IMG/VR virus record: IMGVR_UViG_3300042691_030848
Span: 1 to 51,978 of that record
Source of the DNA: a virus
DNA length: 51,978 nt
Strand: one strand, 5' to 3'
Made by a program: the position numbers and the translations under genes. This document shows positions 22,875 to 44,117 of the stretch, piece after piece. Under the pieces are notes generated by a model. The model was not told the origin of the DNA, did not search any database, and saw only the letters and a list, made by a program, of their open reading frames with translations. Every line of letters begins with the position of its first letter. The first letter of the stretch is position 1.

Positions 22875-22910
22875 AAGAGATTTGGCTTCCCCGGATCTCT
22901 TTATTATATT
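22875..22910 (+). promoter_or_regulatory. Host-type promoter P3 with flanking inverted repeat
   Basis: TTGGCT at 22882-22887 and TATATT at 22905-22910, spacer 17. The -35 box lies in the loop of an inverted repeat, AAGAGAT (22875-22881) and ATCTCTT (22895-22901), followed by a T-rich run. The same bases could thus be the terminator of the upstream operon and the promoter of the next. The predicted start is at about 22917, directly before the ATG at 22918. Confidence 0.65.
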
Positions 22911-37034: not shown

Positions 37035-37784
37035 ATGGATAAAATAGAAAAAATACGTTCAATTATACGTGAGTCAATTCAAGACTATATTAAAGAAATT
37101 GACTCAGCAGGTACTACTGCTATGTATGAAGCTAAAATGAAAGCTTGTGATGAAGCAATCGAGAAAAGAATGAAAAAAATCGAAATGGCTGAGTCATTAG
37201 AAGAAATGCAAGGTATGTTTGATGAGTCTAAAATGAAAGACCTTAAAACAGAAATTAAAGCATTAGAAAAACAAAAAGCCAAATATGGTAAAATGCTTGA
37301 AAAGCTTAACAAAGGCAAAGAAGTAGTAACTGAAGAACCAATGGAAGAAACACCTGTTGAAGAATCTGATATCACAGCTGAAATGACCGATGATACTATG
37401 ACTGAAGGTAAGAAGAAAAAAGATAAGAAAGACGAAAAAGAAATGATGAATGAGTCATTCTTAAAAATGCAAAAATTAGCAGGTATTATCACTGAAGCTC
37501 AGTATAATCAGAAAAAAACCTTAGTTGAAAATGAAAACATGACTATAGCTGATTTTTTAAATGCTAATATTGAAGAATTTAAACAAAAAATAGCTAATCC
37601 TGGCTCATCTTTTGAAATTATGGGGGATGCTAAAGTAGCAACAGCTGGAAAAGGTGAAAAGGGTATAGATGTTTCTTTTGATAAAGAACACATGCTTAAA
37701 CTTTTCCCAAAAAATGATCCATATAACCAAGTTGAAGAAGTAGAAATAGCTGGTAAAAAAGTATATTATAATAATTATTTATAA
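37035..37784 (+). CDS. Leader-bearing coiled-coil protein with MQKLAGIITE motif, 249 aa
   Basis: The N-terminus MDKIEKIRSIIRESIQDYIK is a leader-like helix with an I-K-E site. A long charged coiled coil runs to about residue 105, then an acidic stretch and KKKKDKKDEK. Residues ~139-152 contain FLKMQKLAGIITEAQY, matching FKKMQKIAGLITESEY in the gene at 43869; this second leader type also ends in I-T-E. The C-terminal ~85 residues are a globular domain. Scaffold/internal head protein is the likely role; a cleavage at ITE would release the C-domain (inference). Confidence 0.62.
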   Translation: MDKIEKIRSIIRESIQDYIKEIDSAGTTAMYEAKMKACDEAIEKRMKKIEMAESLEEMQGMFDESKMKDLKTEIKALEKQKAKYGKMLEKLNKGKEVVTEEPMEETPVEESDITAEMTDDTMTEGKKKKDKKDEKEMMNESFLKMQKLAGIITEAQYNQKKTLVENENMTIADFLNANIEEFKQKIANPGSSFEIMGDAKVATAGKGEKGIDVSFDKEHMLKLFPKNDPYNQVEEVEIAGKKVYYNNYL

Positions 37785-37914: not shown

Positions 37915-39231
37915 ATGAGAAGAATGAATAAGAAAATAGTTATTGTAGGTGCCGGAGTAGCGGGTATAAATGCAGCTACTACATTAGTCGATAAAGGCTA
38001 CCCAGGTGAGCTTATCACCATTATAGACAAAGGTAACGATCCATTTGAACGTAAACCTGAGGAAGTAATGACAGGTATGTTAGGAGCAGGTGGATGGAGT
38101 GATGGTAAATTAACTTATCATACGGCAATTGGAGGTCAATTGTCTAAGTATTGTGGTGAAGAAAAAGCAATGAAATTGATGAAACAAGTAGTAGATAACT
38201 TTACTCGTTTTCACCCTAAACCAGAAGAAATATTTTGCTCTGATCCACAAGCAGAACCTGATTTTATTAAACCACATTTTGGTTTGAGACTATTTCCTGT
38301 ATGGCATATTGGTTCAAACTATCTACATGAAATCGCTATCAATTGGTACAATTATCTAGTTGATAAAGGTGTTAAATTTATGTGGGAAACTGAGGTAACA
38401 AATATAAATTTTGATGAACAATCAGTTGAATTTAAAATTGATTTAAAAATACCTTTCCCTAATACATCACATGGTTATGAATTTTATGATAAACTAATAT
38501 TTGCAGTAGGTAAATCAGGTATTGATTTTGCTCAATCACTCTCAGACAATTACCAATTACCTACAGAACCTAAATCAGTACAAATTGGAGTACGTTTTGA
38601 AGCACCACAAAAATACTTCCAAAAACTAATTGATATCAGTTATGATTTTAAATTGTATCAAAAGTTTGATAAGGTATCGTTACGTTCATTCTGTACTAAT
38701 AATAACGCGGCTTACGTAGCAGTAGAGGAAACATATGGTGATATCACTTACAATGGTCACGCTAAGAAAGGTGAACAATTTAGAAACGATATGACTAATT
38801 TTGGCATCTTGATGGAAATTAAAGGTATTGAAAATCCATTTGAGTGGTCTAGAGAAGTTGTTCAAAAGTGTCAAATAAACGGTAAAGGATTATATTACTC
38901 ACCATCTAGAAAAGTATCAACAACTTCTGAAGGTAATGAAGTATCAGCTACTCAAATTATAGATTTATTTCCTGTAAGATCAGCTATGGGAAAATATTTT
39001 AACTATATTGAAGATTTTATTGACCAAATGAATGAAGTATTTGAATTTGGTGATGATTGGGGTGTGTATATTCCTGAAGTAAAATATTTGTCTCCTGAAC
39101 CACTAGTGAACTATAATGATTTAGCATTAGTAGAATATGAAAATGTTCATTTTGTTGGTGATGCGTTGAGTGCTAGAGGAATTACAGTATCCGGTGCTCA
39201 TGGTATATATGTAGCTGAAAGTTTAATTTAA
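37915..39231 (+). CDS. FAD-dependent oxidoreductase
   Basis: A 438-residue flavoprotein. The Rossmann nucleotide-binding motif is IVIVGAGVAGINAA (GxGxxG at residues 12-17) with an acidic residue at the end of strand 2 (IIDKG). GAGGWSDGKL (~56-66) and the C-terminal FVGDALSARGITVSGAHGIY, then VAESL, are the conserved flavin-contact segments of the COG2509-like FAD-dehydrogenase family. Start is ATG 37915 or ATG 37924. The physiological substrate is unknown. In a phage such an enzyme may act on RNA, lipid or cofactor during takeover; no partner in the window reveals which. It ends at a terminator that overlaps promoter P5. Confidence 0.82.
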   Translation: MRRMNKKIVIVGAGVAGINAATTLVDKGYPGELITIIDKGNDPFERKPEEVMTGMLGAGGWSDGKLTYHTAIGGQLSKYCGEEKAMKLMKQVVDNFTRFHPKPEEIFCSDPQAEPDFIKPHFGLRLFPVWHIGSNYLHEIAINWYNYLVDKGVKFMWETEVTNINFDEQSVEFKIDLKIPFPNTSHGYEFYDKLIFAVGKSGIDFAQSLSDNYQLPTEPKSVQIGVRFEAPQKYFQKLIDISYDFKLYQKFDKVSLRSFCTNNNAAYVAVEETYGDITYNGHAKKGEQFRNDMTNFGILMEIKGIENPFEWSREVVQKCQINGKGLYYSPSRKVSTTSEGNEVSATQIIDLFPVRSAMGKYFNYIEDFIDQMNEVFEFGDDWGVYIPEVKYLSPEPLVNYNDLALVEYENVHFVGDALSARGITVSGAHGIYVAESLI

Positions 39232-39254
39232 GATTTTTAACATATTCAAAAATG

Positions 39255-39280
39255 AAAGCTTGGCCTCGCCAGGCTTTCTT
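39255..39280 (+). terminator. Terminator hairpin overlapping promoter P5
   Basis: AAAGCUUGGC (39255-39264) pairs with GCCAGGCUUU (39268-39277) with one G-U pair and a CUC loop, followed by CTTGTT. The -35 box TTGGCC of the next promoter is inside the left arm and loop, so termination and initiation share the same bases. Confidence 0.75.
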
Positions 39281-39288
39281 GTTATATT
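39260..39288 (+). promoter_or_regulatory. Host-type promoter P5 (TTGGCC-N17-TATATT)
   Basis: TTGGCC at 39260-39265 and TATATT at 39283-39288, spacer 17. The expected start is about 39295, giving a leader of about 13 bases before the VWA gene ATG at 39308. Confidence 0.68.
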
Positions 39289-39307: not shown

Positions 39308-40489
39308 ATGTCAGCATTACACGACGATCTTAGTAGAATTGGTAAGTTATTAATGTTTAAAGAACCGTTTTATGGTGTGTTTTTGTCTACTCTTAACAAA
39401 GTAGAACGTAAAGATGTACCAACAGCTGGTGTTTGTAAAAACAATATTAACTATCAATTAGCAGTTAACAAAGAATTTTGGGATTCTTTGAAAGGAGACA
39501 ACAATAAAATCGGTCTTTTAAAACATGAGTTGTTACACATATGTTTCAACCACTTAGAAGACCGTGAAAAATTTGATGATCATGAATTGCATAATGTAGC
39601 GGCGGATATTGAAATTAATCAGTATATTGATCCTGCATTTTATCCAACAGATGATATTCTTTTACCAACAACGTTCCCAGAGTTGAATTTGCCTCTTAAA
39701 GCTGGTACTAGAATGTATTATGATTTGTTAAAACAAGCTCAGAAAAATGGTACTAGTCCTAAATTAAATGCATTACTAGATGCTTTAAAAGGAGGTAAAG
39801 GTCTACATCCAACATGGGAAGAATTTGAAAGTTTAACTGACGCTGAAAAGAAATTAGTAGCTAATCAGATTAAACATCAAATTAAAGAAATTGTTGAATC
39901 TAATAAAGAAAAAGGACGTGGATTTATTCCATCAGAGTTAGAGTCAATGATTAATGAATTGTTTGAAGTTGTACCACCTTCATATGATTGGAAGTCATAT
40001 TTTAGACGTTTCTTTGGTACTTCAAATAAAATTTACACTAAGAAAACACGTAGAAAATTAAACAGACGTTTTCCAGGTAACCCAGCTCTTAAAATTAAGA
40101 CTAAAAAACATGTTTTAGTTGGTATAGATACATCTGGTTCTGTTAGTGACGCAGATCTATTAGAATTCTTCAGTGAAATTTATCATATGTGGAAAACAGG
40201 TATTAAAATTACTATCGCTGAATGTGATGCTACTATTCATAGAACTTGGGAATATGATGGAGACATGCCTGAATCAGTACGTGGTAGAGGTGGTACTAAT
40301 ATGAATCCAATTATTGAATATTTTAATGACCAACGTCATTTTAGTAGTTTGATTATTCTAACAGATGGTTTCATCGGTGATAGAACAGTACGTAGTTATA
40401 AACCAACAATGATGGTTTTATGTAAAAAAGGAGCTGATGTTGAAGAAGTTCAAAGCAGTTGGGGTCATACAATCAAAATTCAATATTAA
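39308..40489 (+). CDS. VWA-domain protein with metallopeptidase-like N-domain (DUF2201-type)
   Basis: A 393-residue protein. Residues 71-81 have LKHELLHICFNH, a zinc-binding HExxH motif (H73, E74, H77), followed by HNVAADIEINQ near 95-104 with a third ligand candidate. This is the DUF2201 N-terminal putative metallopeptidase domain. The C-terminal VWA-like domain (about 262-393) has VGIDTSGSVSD (MIDAS D-x-S-x-S near 271-275), GGTN near 333 and LTDGF near 354. In bacteria DUF2201/VWA proteins pair with MoxR AAA+ ATPases, and here the ATPase gene follows immediately under its own promoter. Likely a chaperone/protease-type complex acting on host proteins (inference). Confidence 0.85.
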   Translation: MSALHDDLSRIGKLLMFKEPFYGVFLSTLNKVERKDVPTAGVCKNNINYQLAVNKEFWDSLKGDNNKIGLLKHELLHICFNHLEDREKFDDHELHNVAADIEINQYIDPAFYPTDDILLPTTFPELNLPLKAGTRMYYDLLKQAQKNGTSPKLNALLDALKGGKGLHPTWEEFESLTDAEKKLVANQIKHQIKEIVESNKEKGRGFIPSELESMINELFEVVPPSYDWKSYFRRFFGTSNKIYTKKTRRKLNRRFPGNPALKIKTKKHVLVGIDTSGSVSDADLLEFFSEIYHMWKTGIKITIAECDATIHRTWEYDGDMPESVRGRGGTNMNPIIEYFNDQRHFSSLIILTDGFIGDRTVRSYKPTMMVLCKKGADVEEVQSSWGHTIKIQY

Positions 40490-40490
40490 T

Positions 40491-40519
40491 TTGGCCTCTC
40501 AAAAATTAAACGTTATATT
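40491..40519 (+). promoter_or_regulatory. Host-type promoter P6 (TTGGCC-N17-TATATT)
   Basis: TTGGCC at 40491-40496 and TATATT at 40514-40519, spacer 17, starting one base after the VWA gene stop codon. The leader before the MoxR ATG at 40544 is about 18 bases. Confidence 0.68.
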
Positions 40520-40543
40520 AAAATAAAATAAATAGGTTATAAA

Positions 40544-41743
40544 ATGGCTAAAAAAGCAACTAAAAGTACTGCTTCACGTCAAGTAGATTTGAACGTTAAA
40601 GAAGCAAAAGAATTCTTAAAACACATTATTGATAACAATCGTTATCTACAAAAAACAAACAAACCACCTGTAGCTGTTGAAGTAGTTGGTGATTCAGGTA
40701 TTGGTAAAACATCAACTATTGTTCAATTAGCAAAAGAATTGGATTTGAATTTTGTTAAGTTGAACTTAGCCCAAATTGAGGAATTGGGTGACTTGGTAGG
40801 ATTTCCAATTCGTCAGTTTGAAGTAACTAAAGATGAATCAAAAGTATGGATTGATGAACATGCTGTTGATGAATATACACGTTTAGGTTTCAAATTTACT
40901 GGCAAAAACCGAATGAGTTACTGTCCACCTGAATGGATTAGTGGTAAATCAACTGGAGGTATTTTGCTTTTGGATGACTGGAACCGCGCTGATATTCGAT
41001 TCATTCAAGCTGTCATGGAATTAATTGACCGCCAACAATATATCAGTTGGGAACTACCTAAAGATTGGCATATCATTCTTACAAGTAATCCTGATAATGG
41101 TGATTATTTGGTAAATAGTATTGACAACGCTCAAAAAACACGATTTATTTCAGTTAATTTGAAATTTGATATTAACTGTTGGAGTGAGTGGGCTGAGAAT
41201 GCTCAAGTAGATAGTCGTTGTATCAACTTCTTGTTGAAACATCCAGAGTTAGTTACTACAAATACTAACTCACGAAGTATCACTACGTTCTTCAATTCAA
41301 TTTCATCACTTGATTCATTTGAAACTACATTACCTTTGATTCAGATGATTGGTGAAGGTAGTGTTGGTGGTGAGTTCTCAACTTTGTTCACAATGTTTAT
41401 TAATAACCGTTTGGACAAGATTATTTCACCACAAACTATTTTAACTCATGAAAGTGATGATTATGTAGTTAGTCAATTGAAAAGTACAATTGGTAAAGAT
41501 GATAAATATCGCGCTGACTTAGCGTCAATTATCTCACAACGTATTGTTAACTATAGTTTATTTTATGCTAAACATAATAAAATTGAAAAACCAATTATTG
41601 ATCGTTTAGCAATGTTAATGAATGAAGAATTGTTTGCTGTGGATTTAAAATACAAAATTGTAAAAGAAATTTACAATGGTGACACAGATAATTTCAGATC
41701 ATTAATGTTGAACAAAACACTGTTGAAATTTTTAACTAAATAA
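40544..41743 (+). CDS. MoxR-family AAA+ ATPase
   Basis: A 399-residue AAA+ ATPase. Walker A is GDSGIGKT (residues 49-56), Walker B ILLLDDWNRA (~139-147, with D-D and the R of the MoxR class), and sensor 1 is ILTSNPD (~176-182). A lid with QKTRFISVN and the C-terminal helical region complete the module. MoxR ATPases act with VWA proteins to remodel or activate targets; the partner gene is directly upstream. It has a separate host-type promoter, suggesting that ATPase and VWA subunits may be needed in different amounts. Three bases separate it from the next gene, so the unknown protein there is a probable third partner. Confidence 0.88.
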   Translation: MAKKATKSTASRQVDLNVKEAKEFLKHIIDNNRYLQKTNKPPVAVEVVGDSGIGKTSTIVQLAKELDLNFVKLNLAQIEELGDLVGFPIRQFEVTKDESKVWIDEHAVDEYTRLGFKFTGKNRMSYCPPEWISGKSTGGILLLDDWNRADIRFIQAVMELIDRQQYISWELPKDWHIILTSNPDNGDYLVNSIDNAQKTRFISVNLKFDINCWSEWAENAQVDSRCINFLLKHPELVTTNTNSRSITTFFNSISSLDSFETTLPLIQMIGEGSVGGEFSTLFTMFINNRLDKIISPQTILTHESDDYVVSQLKSTIGKDDKYRADLASIISQRIVNYSLFYAKHNKIEKPIIDRLAMLMNEELFAVDLKYKIVKEIYNGDTDNFRSLMLNKTLLKFLTK

Positions 41744-41745
41744 TC

Positions 41746-42816
41746 ATGGAAGATATAGTTAAGCAATTAGTTGAGAAAAAAGTAAGTTTTACTGAACTAA
41801 ATTTTCGTACTAGTACTGATCATAAAGGTGTAACCAATAGTGCTTTTTATAGATATTATTTATATAAGAGTATATTTATCCCACAAAGCGTAGCTCTCGA
41901 ATATCGAGAGTTACGCAACAAATGGAAAAATAATACTTTAAAAACTAATACTAAAGTATATTCTACTCAGTTATCTCAATTGCCTTCTTTTAAATTAAAG
42001 AATCATATTGAAGAAAATAAATTAGATATTACATTTGGTCGTAAATGGAGAGAAATAGATACTGTTATTATTGGTGATAACTTTATTGAGGAAATGTTTA
42101 GGATTAAAAATGCTCTCACAAATCAATATTATGTTATTCCTACAACTATTTTAAAGAAAAACTTTAGAAAGTATATGCATAAAGGAAATTCACATTGGAG
42201 TGAGGTTAATGAAGAATATGTTTTAATTAAACCAGATGATTTGGAGAAAGCAATTCAAATTGATTCTAATTTTAGTGGTTTAAAATCTAGATGCCCATTA
42301 ATTAATGGAGCTATAATATTTAATGGTCATGGTAATTCTAAAGCATTTTCTCAGTATGAGTTTTTTATGAATTTACCACAAAATATCAGAGATTGGGATC
42401 TAGAAGTTGTGTATGATGATGTACTTGGAGAAGAAGTAAATAAAGGTATGTCATTAGATATTGATATATTCTCAAATCTATTAACTATGGTTGATAGTGA
42501 GGATAAAGAAAACATGAATATGGTTAAGGAGATCATGGCTAATTCAGAATATGAAAGTTCAGAACCATATCTTTCTTATATCTTTAATGTACACCCTAAA
42601 TTGAAAGTAGTTAATGGTAACAACAATTATAAGTTTTTGATAAAAAAACTAGAAAAATTCAAAATAGGCTCACGTTATGATAAATGTACTGTTGATGAAA
42701 TAATTGCTGGTTTAACTAAAGTTGCTCCTCAATATGGTGGTATTTATGCTCAATGTTTAAAAGCTCATCTTAACCATATGATGGGAGGAGAAGTAATTAA
42801 AGAGATAATAGTATAG
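41746..42816 (+). CDS. Hypothetical third component of the MoxR-VWA cluster, 356 aa
   Basis: A soluble 356-residue protein without recognised domains or signal. It contains alternating alpha/beta segments (VIIGDNFIEEMF near 105, GAIIFNGHGNSKAFSQYEFF near 187, and a C-terminal helix-rich part ending HLNHMMGGEVIKEIIV). It starts two bases after the MoxR stop and shares promoter P6. In bacterial MoxR-VWA systems a third gene often supplies the substrate or adaptor. By position this is the obvious candidate, but sequence alone shows no function. Confidence 0.65.
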   Translation: MEDIVKQLVEKKVSFTELNFRTSTDHKGVTNSAFYRYYLYKSIFIPQSVALEYRELRNKWKNNTLKTNTKVYSTQLSQLPSFKLKNHIEENKLDITFGRKWREIDTVIIGDNFIEEMFRIKNALTNQYYVIPTTILKKNFRKYMHKGNSHWSEVNEEYVLIKPDDLEKAIQIDSNFSGLKSRCPLINGAIIFNGHGNSKAFSQYEFFMNLPQNIRDWDLEVVYDDVLGEEVNKGMSLDIDIFSNLLTMVDSEDKENMNMVKEIMANSEYESSEPYLSYIFNVHPKLKVVNGNNNYKFLIKKLEKFKIGSRYDKCTVDEIIAGLTKVAPQYGGIYAQCLKAHLNHMMGGEVIKEIIV

Positions 42817-42842: not shown

Positions 42843-43316
42843 ATGGCTAGAATAGTACTTTTAAGTTGCACTAAATCAAAGATAGATCGTACGGCTCCTG
42901 CACAGGAGCTGTATTCTGCTTCCCCAATGTTCCAAAAAACTTTAGAGTATGGAAAAAAACTAAAGCCAGATAAGATGTTTATTCTATCTGCTAAGCATCA
43001 CTTGGTACCTTTAACTAAAGAGTTAGCTCCATACGACAAAACTCTTAAAGAAATGCCTAAAGATGAGAAAGAAAAATGGGGTGAGGAAACAGTAAAACAA
43101 ATGAAATCAGCGGGTATAAACCCAGAAAAAGACAAATTCATATTCCTCACCGGCAGCGAGTATCTAAAGCCTTTAACCAAATATATCCCAGAAGAAAACA
43201 TGGAAACACCTATGGAGGGAAAACGATTTGGACAGCGTTTAAAGTGGTTAAACAGTCAGTTAAATGAGATATTTACTAAATTAAAAAATATTATATATGA
43301 AGTTCTCAAAAAGTAA
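42843..43316 (+). CDS. DUF6884-type protein, 157 aa
   Basis: The N-terminus IVLLSCTKSKIDRTAPAQEL, then YSASPMFQKTLEY, and MFILSAKHHLVPLTKELAPY, then DKTL are the diagnostic segments of the DUF6884 family (LxSCxKxK, PAxxLYxSxxF, xxLSAKHxLxxxxxxxxPYDxTL). This fold resembles a Rossmann-type nucleotide- or base-handling domain, but the reaction is unknown. It is followed by a C-terminal helix. The last 20 bases overlap the next gene in another frame. Phage versions may act in DNA modification or defence; not shown here. Confidence 0.75.
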   Translation: MARIVLLSCTKSKIDRTAPAQELYSASPMFQKTLEYGKKLKPDKMFILSAKHHLVPLTKELAPYDKTLKEMPKDEKEKWGEETVKQMKSAGINPEKDKFIFLTGSEYLKPLTKYIPEENMETPMEGKRFGQRLKWLNSQLNEIFTKLKNIIYEVLKK

Positions 43317-43868: not shown

Positions 43869-44117
43869 ATGAATGAAGAATTTAAAAAAATGCAGAAAAT
43901 AGCTGGTTTAATTACAGAATCAGAATATAAAGAAAACATAAATGAAAATATGGCTTCCCTTAGTCAAGAAATATATATGGATTTCTTAAATGAATTATTT
44001 AATGTTCTTGGTAATGGTGCTAACTCATATGATAATAGTACTTGGACTGCTAAAGAAGAAGAATTAGCGCGTGCTATTAATGGAGCTATAGAAGCTGCTA
44101 ATATTGATCTTGTATAA
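43869..44117 (+). CDS. MQKIAGLITE-motif small protein, 82 aa
   Basis: The N-terminus MNEEFKKMQKIAGLITESEY is the second leader type of this genome, shared with an internal segment of the 37035 product. I-T-E is a good match to the prohead-protease site [I/L]-x-E. The remainder is helical and acidic (SLSQEIYMDFLNELFNVLGN, then a C-terminal helix), with no family assignment. It ends before a strong terminator at 44140. Confidence 0.65.
   Translation: MNEEFKKMQKIAGLITESEYKENINENMASLSQEIYMDFLNELFNVLGNGANSYDNSTWTAKEEELARAINGAIEAANIDLV

Follow-up and report, generated by a model that had tools for sequence, protein, structure and literature searches.

Analysis of a 51,978 bp stretch of viral DNA (IMG/VR record IMGVR_UViG_3300042691_030848, positions 1 to 51,978; hereafter the window) revealed three adjacent genes encoding a VWA-metallopeptidase, a MoxR-type AAA+ ATPase and a third protein of 356 amino acids, which we have designated THIRD. 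This trio occurs in several groups of aquatic phages, and THIRD lies beside the pair wherever the contig reaches far enough. The MoxR-VWA pair is already known in phages (PMC7824862, PMC4193335); a constant third subunit with a BRCT-like domain and armadillo (ARM)/HEAT-like helices appears to be new, as no description of one was found. We propose, tentatively and as something short of probable, that the trio is a phage protein-remodelling machine in which THIRD is the dedicated specificity subunit. The proposal draws on the computed gene order, the catalytic motifs, the joint presence of the genes in three clades, the rapid yet constrained evolution of THIRD and an architecture found in two structural models.

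The source record represents a partial T4-like phage and encodes a T4-like terminase, portal and baseplate. The terminase shares 61% identity with its counterpart in Flavobacterium phage immuto, which makes a Bacteroidota host likely. The trio lies upstream of the terminase and portal genes and consists of three co-directional open reading frames (ORFs) on the + strand between 39308 and 42816, separated by 54 nt (gene 1/gene 2) and 2 nt (gene 2/gene 3). A first-pass annotation had described a compact set of an HExxH plus VWA protein, a MoxR AAA+ ATPase and a 356-residue protein; the ORFs were found at exactly the positions it gave and the Pfam domains agreed:

39308–40489, + strand: VWA-metallopeptidase (DUF2201_N + DUF2201; Pfam), 393 amino acids, with HELLH at residues 73–77 and the metal ion-dependent adhesion site (MIDAS) motif DTSGS at residues 274–278.
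40544–41743, + strand: MoxR-type AAA+ ATPase (Pfam/PHROGs), 399 amino acids, with Walker A GDSGIGKT and Walker B LLLDD.
41746–42816, + strand: THIRD, 356 amino acids, the constant, fast-evolving partner (from co-occurrence), with a split BRCT-like domain and ARM/HEAT-like helices (from models).

Co-occurrence of the third gene in relatives had been set beforehand as a test of this grouping. When 2.9 million viral contigs were scanned with the MoxR protein, THIRD was present in 76 of the best 80 contigs. The four contigs without it (L069, L073, L075 and L076) come from a clade that has THIRD on the upstream side of the VWA gene, and each of them begins within or shortly ahead of the VWA or MoxR gene, so that it is cut on the THIRD side; the association was also retained in a distant clade whose genes are arranged differently. 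A second scan, with an alignment of THIRD, yielded THIRD but no MoxR gene solely on contigs that begin within THIRD. Combining the two scans gave 144 of 148 with THIRD, although these loci overlap and are not independent contigs.

Three clades with three gene orders were distinguished. Clade A has the order VWA-MoxR-THIRD, mostly with genes for a flavin adenine dinucleotide (FAD)-dependent protein, a DUF6884 protein and a kinase around it. Clade B has the order THIRD-VWA-MoxR and these neighbours are absent from it; its THIRD was homologous to that of clade A (hhalign 99.2%, E 6e-20). Clade C, found in 80 more contigs (L164–L243) with 59% MoxR identity, has the order VWA-MoxR-Ta-Tb. Tb was homologous to THIRD (99.1%, E 1e-18) and Ta weakly related to it (75.5%, E 2e-5). 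Ta (~345 amino acids) was better conserved than Tb (~385 amino acids), with mean pairwise identities of 51% and 32% respectively. Tb was missing from 10 of 83 clade C loci, all on contigs that end too early to include it. Since THIRD was kept in three clades with three gene orders, it follows the pair through rearrangement. A 'Bacteriophage sp.' scaffold carrying a VWA-MoxR pair (L163) was dropped, as it was judged likely to be a bacterial fragment.

THIRD was also the fastest-changing member of the trio. The ratio of non-synonymous to synonymous substitution rates (dN/dS, Nei-Gojobori count) against eight clade A relatives was 0.22–0.69 for THIRD, where the highest values are rough because dS was close to 1 or higher in the comparisons behind them, compared with 0.12–0.20 for the VWA protein and 0.07–0.15 for MoxR. 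The rate for THIRD was ~2–5x that of its partners, and the selection acting on it was purifying overall. Mean pairwise identity was 57% in the first part of the BRCT-like domain, 45% in the ARM/HEAT-like helices, 29% in an insert within the domain and 27% at the N-terminus; two basic residues of the BRCT-like core, K83 and K85, were invariant. Tb showed the same pattern, with a conserved BRCT-like core and a variable insert and N-terminus. The rank correlation of identities was 0.50 for THIRD-VWA, 0.34 for THIRD-MoxR, 0.29 for THIRD-DUF6884 and −0.01 for THIRD-FAD, values that are suggestive and were not used as proof, phylogeny being uncontrolled.

No relative of THIRD was found above threshold in Pfam, PHROGs or NCBIfam, nor by sequence profile in the PDB; annotation pipelines therefore miss this family, as the first three databases hold no profile for it. 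AlphaFold2 models of THIRD and Tb were built from alignments with no sequence in common and reached a mean predicted local distance difference test score of 88.2 and 88.8 respectively. Both models showed a BRCT-like domain split by an insert of ~100 residues and followed by armadillo/HEAT-like helices, which in THIRD correspond to:

41938–42096, + strand: residues 65–117, first part of the BRCT-like domain and most conserved region (57% mean pairwise identity, clade A).
42097–42396, + strand: residues 118–217, variable insert (29% mean pairwise identity).
42397–42444, + strand: residues 218–233, last strand and helix of the BRCT-like domain (model, alignment).
42445–42675, + strand: residues 234–310, armadillo/HEAT-like helices (model).

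Structural alignment with VIA-align placed BRCT domains at ranks 1–6 for THIRD (DnlJ first, Z 5.2, 3.1 Å over 73 residues) and in all 23 best PDB rows for Tb (PARP1 first, Z 7.0, 2.8 Å over 78 residues). BRCT domains (PARP1, XRCC1, BRCA1, LigA) gave the best structural rows for both models and the domain aligned full-length; ARM/HEAT proteins matched the helices that follow it in both. Unlike known BRCT domains, the BRCT-like domain of THIRD is split by the insert, and its profile match to LigA BRCT was not significant. A structural search of BFVD gave four significant neighbours of THIRD and Tb and no others: A0A6J5LXR8, A0A8S5QMV2 (crAss-like ctYsL76), and A0A8S5TL70 and A0A8S5TKB2 (podovirus ctz6O13), at probability 1.00. 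All four are uncharacterised phage proteins, and ctz6O13 encodes two of them, like Ta-Tb. A BRCT-like plus armadillo-like architecture would be unusual in phages.

Gene 1 encodes a protein with a 'putative metallopeptidase domain' (PF13203, DUF2201_N, 7e-15) and a VWA-like DUF2201 domain (PF09967, 6e-11), both over the Pfam cut-off. HELLH (73–77) and the MIDAS residues D274, S276, S278, T330 and D353 were invariant among 26 homologues, and HExxH was kept in 81 of the 81 clade C homologues checked. Retention in a distant clade held for the catalytic and metal-binding motifs in general. Many matched phage records (e.g. L157, L158, L307 and L308) and PHROG 1314 label this DUF2201 protein 'HNH endonuclease'. 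This function was rejected, as Pfam detected DUF2201 domains only and no HNH domain, and the label looks like a propagated misannotation.

The gene 2 protein is AAA_5/MoxR-like (AAA_5, 23.5 bits against a Pfam cut-off of 22; phrog_1297 'ATPase', 8e-33) and has the Walker A, Walker B and sensor Asn of the AAA+ core. Across 23 relatives its mean column identity was 82%; the Walker A and Walker B residues were invariant or nearly so, with G49, G52, G54, K55, T56, D144, D145 and N182 invariant. Walker B (40973–40978, residues 144–145) reads LLLDDWNR in all relatives checked across clades, with DD and not DE; the Walker B of AAA+ proteins usually has a catalytic Glu where the phage MoxR has this second Asp.

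In the proposed machine, the three proteins would form a complex in which the MoxR ATPase forms a ring that strains its VWA partner, by analogy with what NorQ does to NorD. The gene 1 protein is predicted to be an active peptidase, and because it keeps an intact HExxH site the remodelling may end in proteolysis of the target. THIRD would act as an adaptor rather than a client, selecting or presenting the target to the MoxR-driven VWA-metallopeptidase. Its BRCT-like core, with K83 and K85, and its helical repeats could dock either to the pair itself or to a ligand that carries phosphate (a DNA end or a phosphopeptide), and its fast-changing N-terminus and insert may meet a variable target.

The target is possibly a DNA-associated phage complex. 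The clade C module lies between DnaB/Sak4/primase genes and a PD-(D/E)XK exonuclease gene, the Schitoviridae pairs adjoin helicase and DNA polymerase genes, and the Moorella phage pair has replication-gene neighbours; these neighbourhoods favour DNA metabolism, those elsewhere being structural or mixed. A more specific version, in which THIRD (or Ta-Tb) reads DNA ends or phosphoproteins, loads the MoxR-metallopeptidase on protein-DNA complexes and strips or cleaves them during phage replication, is unlikely. No such BRCT-guided AAA+ unfoldase/protease was found in the literature searched, and nothing combining BRCT, bacteriophage and MoxR was found in the open-licence literature searched.

Several results weigh against the proposal. 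The pair occurs without THIRD in many phages, so not every version of the machine requires THIRD. Among the loci examined from Schitoviridae and from cyanophages and Vibrio, Bacillus and Moorella phages, none showed a THIRD-like neighbour. A 353-amino-acid gene product beside the Moorella phage pair matched neither the THIRD profile nor Pfam. Tblastn with THIRD, Tb and a clade C THIRD from a Campylobacteraceae metagenome-assembled genome gave no match in 50,697 phage records. Neighbourhoods are mixed, with structural or nucleotide-metabolism genes in other phages, and gene neighbourhood was for this reason rejected as proof of a replication role. Additionally, both BRCT Z scores (5.2 and 7.0) are below 8, where a match can be an ordinary arrangement. 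A Foldseek search, which the first-pass annotation had suggested for the third protein, gave no match between the THIRD model and the PDB (best E 0.05, with long unrelated alignments), and the BRCT signal came from VIA-align only. The hhalign comparison with 47 bacterial LigA BRCTs fell within the shuffled null; with this profile test against bacterial ligase BRCTs negative, the fold call is structural only. Pfam BRCT was sub-threshold only, in 1 of 40 THIRD and 5 of 28 Ta proteins, with no match among Tb members. On account of these low Z scores, the negative Foldseek and hhalign results and the sub-threshold Pfam matches, THIRD was named BRCT-like and not filed as a BRCT member.

Jumbo phages encode a MoxR AAA+ ATPase and a vWA protein with a metallopeptidase fused at its N-terminus, for which Iyer and colleagues proposed a role in virion assembly (PMC7824862). 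In phage N4, genes 24 and 25 (gp24/gp25) are listed as core genes and as middle transcripts (PMC4193335). The jumbo/N4 pair (PHROGs 1297 and 1314, Pfam DUF2201) has the same two architectures as the window, in adjacent genes and with HExxH and VWA in one protein, to which the window trio adds THIRD. The gene 1 and gene 2 proteins of the window showed only ~20–30% identity to those of isolate phages. A tblastn search with the gene 1 protein of a clade C phage gave matches in 445 phage records. The DUF2201 VWA-metallopeptidase is core in N4-like phages (PMC4193335), and a constant third subunit would offer a handle on the target of the machine. The first-pass interpretation of a MoxR-VWA/metallopeptidase pair carried by a phage together with a genuine third member stands, but the pair itself is not new. 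Its further suggestion that host complexes are dismantled found no support in the evidence, and neither did membership in an anti-phage system: PADLOC gave no match for proteins 1 and 3 and matched only 41 residues of DolB for protein 2.

Among cellular systems, a VWA-domain finger of NorQD enters the pore of the MoxR-family hexamer, straining the partner (PMC13036017). NorQ/NorD and other cellular MoxR-VWA pairs (PMC13036017, PMC9976466) likewise combine an AAA+ ring with a VWA partner and are analogues for force transmission, NorQD being the best one mechanically. These published pairs act on respiratory or metabolic enzymes; what sets the phage VWA protein apart is the metallopeptidase domain at its N-terminus and the BRCT-like protein that accompanies it as third partner. 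In bacteria, MoxR-vWA ternary conflict systems have a VMAP or iSTAND third component (PMC7159879). They resemble the trio in their three-gene logic of MoxR, vWA and a diversified third protein, but differ in that effector domains are fused to their vWA component and the third protein is defined by VMAP-C/iSTAND (PMC7159879). Scans of THIRD with Pfam, NCBIfam and PADLOC, which included no dedicated VMAP-C profile, returned nothing pointing to VMAP/iSTAND.

That THIRD is instead the client, which the pair activates, loads, unloads or cleaves and which itself acts on DNA or a phosphoprotein, is a rather doubtful alternative. A client would be just as compatible with the constant co-occurrence and the probable co-transcription. 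Some MoxR-VWA operons have the matured enzyme as a constant neighbour; NorQD remodels a dedicated target, nitric oxide reductase (PMC13036017), and CbbQO acts on Rubisco (PMC4660213). Chaperone clients, however, usually evolve no faster than the chaperone, whereas THIRD is the fastest member of the trio; clade C has two different third proteins, and no enzymatic family was recognisable in THIRD.

Assistance in virion assembly, in which the trio would serve a structural protein as chaperone or peptidase, in line with the suggestion of Iyer and colleagues for the pair of jumbo phages, is quite unlikely. The published proposal has a precedent in archaeal ATV (PMC7824862), the window trio lies upstream of the terminase and portal genes, and the pair adjoins structural genes in RaK2 and Staphylococcus phage SA1. 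The replication-gene neighbours in clade C, Schitoviridae and the Moorella phage do not fit this role, nor does the middle transcription of N4 gp24/gp25 (PMC4193335), and a BRCT-like partner would be unexpected for a virion factor. An attack on a host target or defence, with THIRD recognising a variable host protein that the pair unfolds or cleaves, is less likely still. In its favour, THIRD evolves faster than the other members and varies most in its insert and N-terminus, the gene that follows (DUF6884) has a match to a PADLOC candidate family, and bacterial MoxR-vWA ternary conflict systems exist (PMC7159879). Against it, proteins 1 and 3 had no PADLOC match, gene-wide dN/dS was <1, and occurrence across entire clades is more suggestive of a core function than of a counter-defence gene with a patchy distribution.

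The first-pass annotation had noted two adjacent host-type promoters. Generic sigma-70 matches were not enriched in the window (43 found against 38.3 ± 6.5 in shuffles), but a specific motif, TTTGGC-N16-18-TTATATT, was shared by the regions upstream of genes 1 and 2. Five copies were found on the + strand, at 22881, 37878, 39260, 40490 and 43544, and the strict form occurred in 0 of 60 Markov-simulated sequences. The two copies at the trio are:

39260–39288, + strand: TTGGCC-N17-TTATATT (without the first T), upstream of the VWA gene and overlapping a terminator-like stem at 39254–39278.
40490–40519, + strand: TTTGGC-N17-TTATATT, directly upstream of the MoxR gene (motif scan).

Among relatives, with partly redundant loci, the motif was upstream of the VWA gene in 31 of 122, of MoxR in 52 of 128 and of THIRD in 0 of 140. 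As THIRD has no motif upstream, it is probably co-transcribed with the MoxR gene. The motif is possibly a phage-class promoter; no Bacteroidota-type promoter pattern was found upstream of the trio genes. The apparent TTG start of an ORF at 22882 falls inside the motif copy at 22881.

Beside the trio, an FAD/NAD-dependent oxidoreductase-like gene (37915–39231; phrog_12409 'dehydrogenase', 5e-19), an unusual phage cargo, adjoins it in most clade A phages. The DUF6884 gene (42843–43316; Pfam, 5.5e-40), just downstream, matches PADLOC candidate family PDC-M57A (E 1.4e-47). Additionally, the peptide NExFxKMQKxAGxITExxY was encoded at 37449 and 43872 on the + strand, in two otherwise unrelated ORFs (37035–37784 and 43869–44117). 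A similar pattern was present in 55 of 311 loci, and the peptide is possibly a shared targeting or processing signal.

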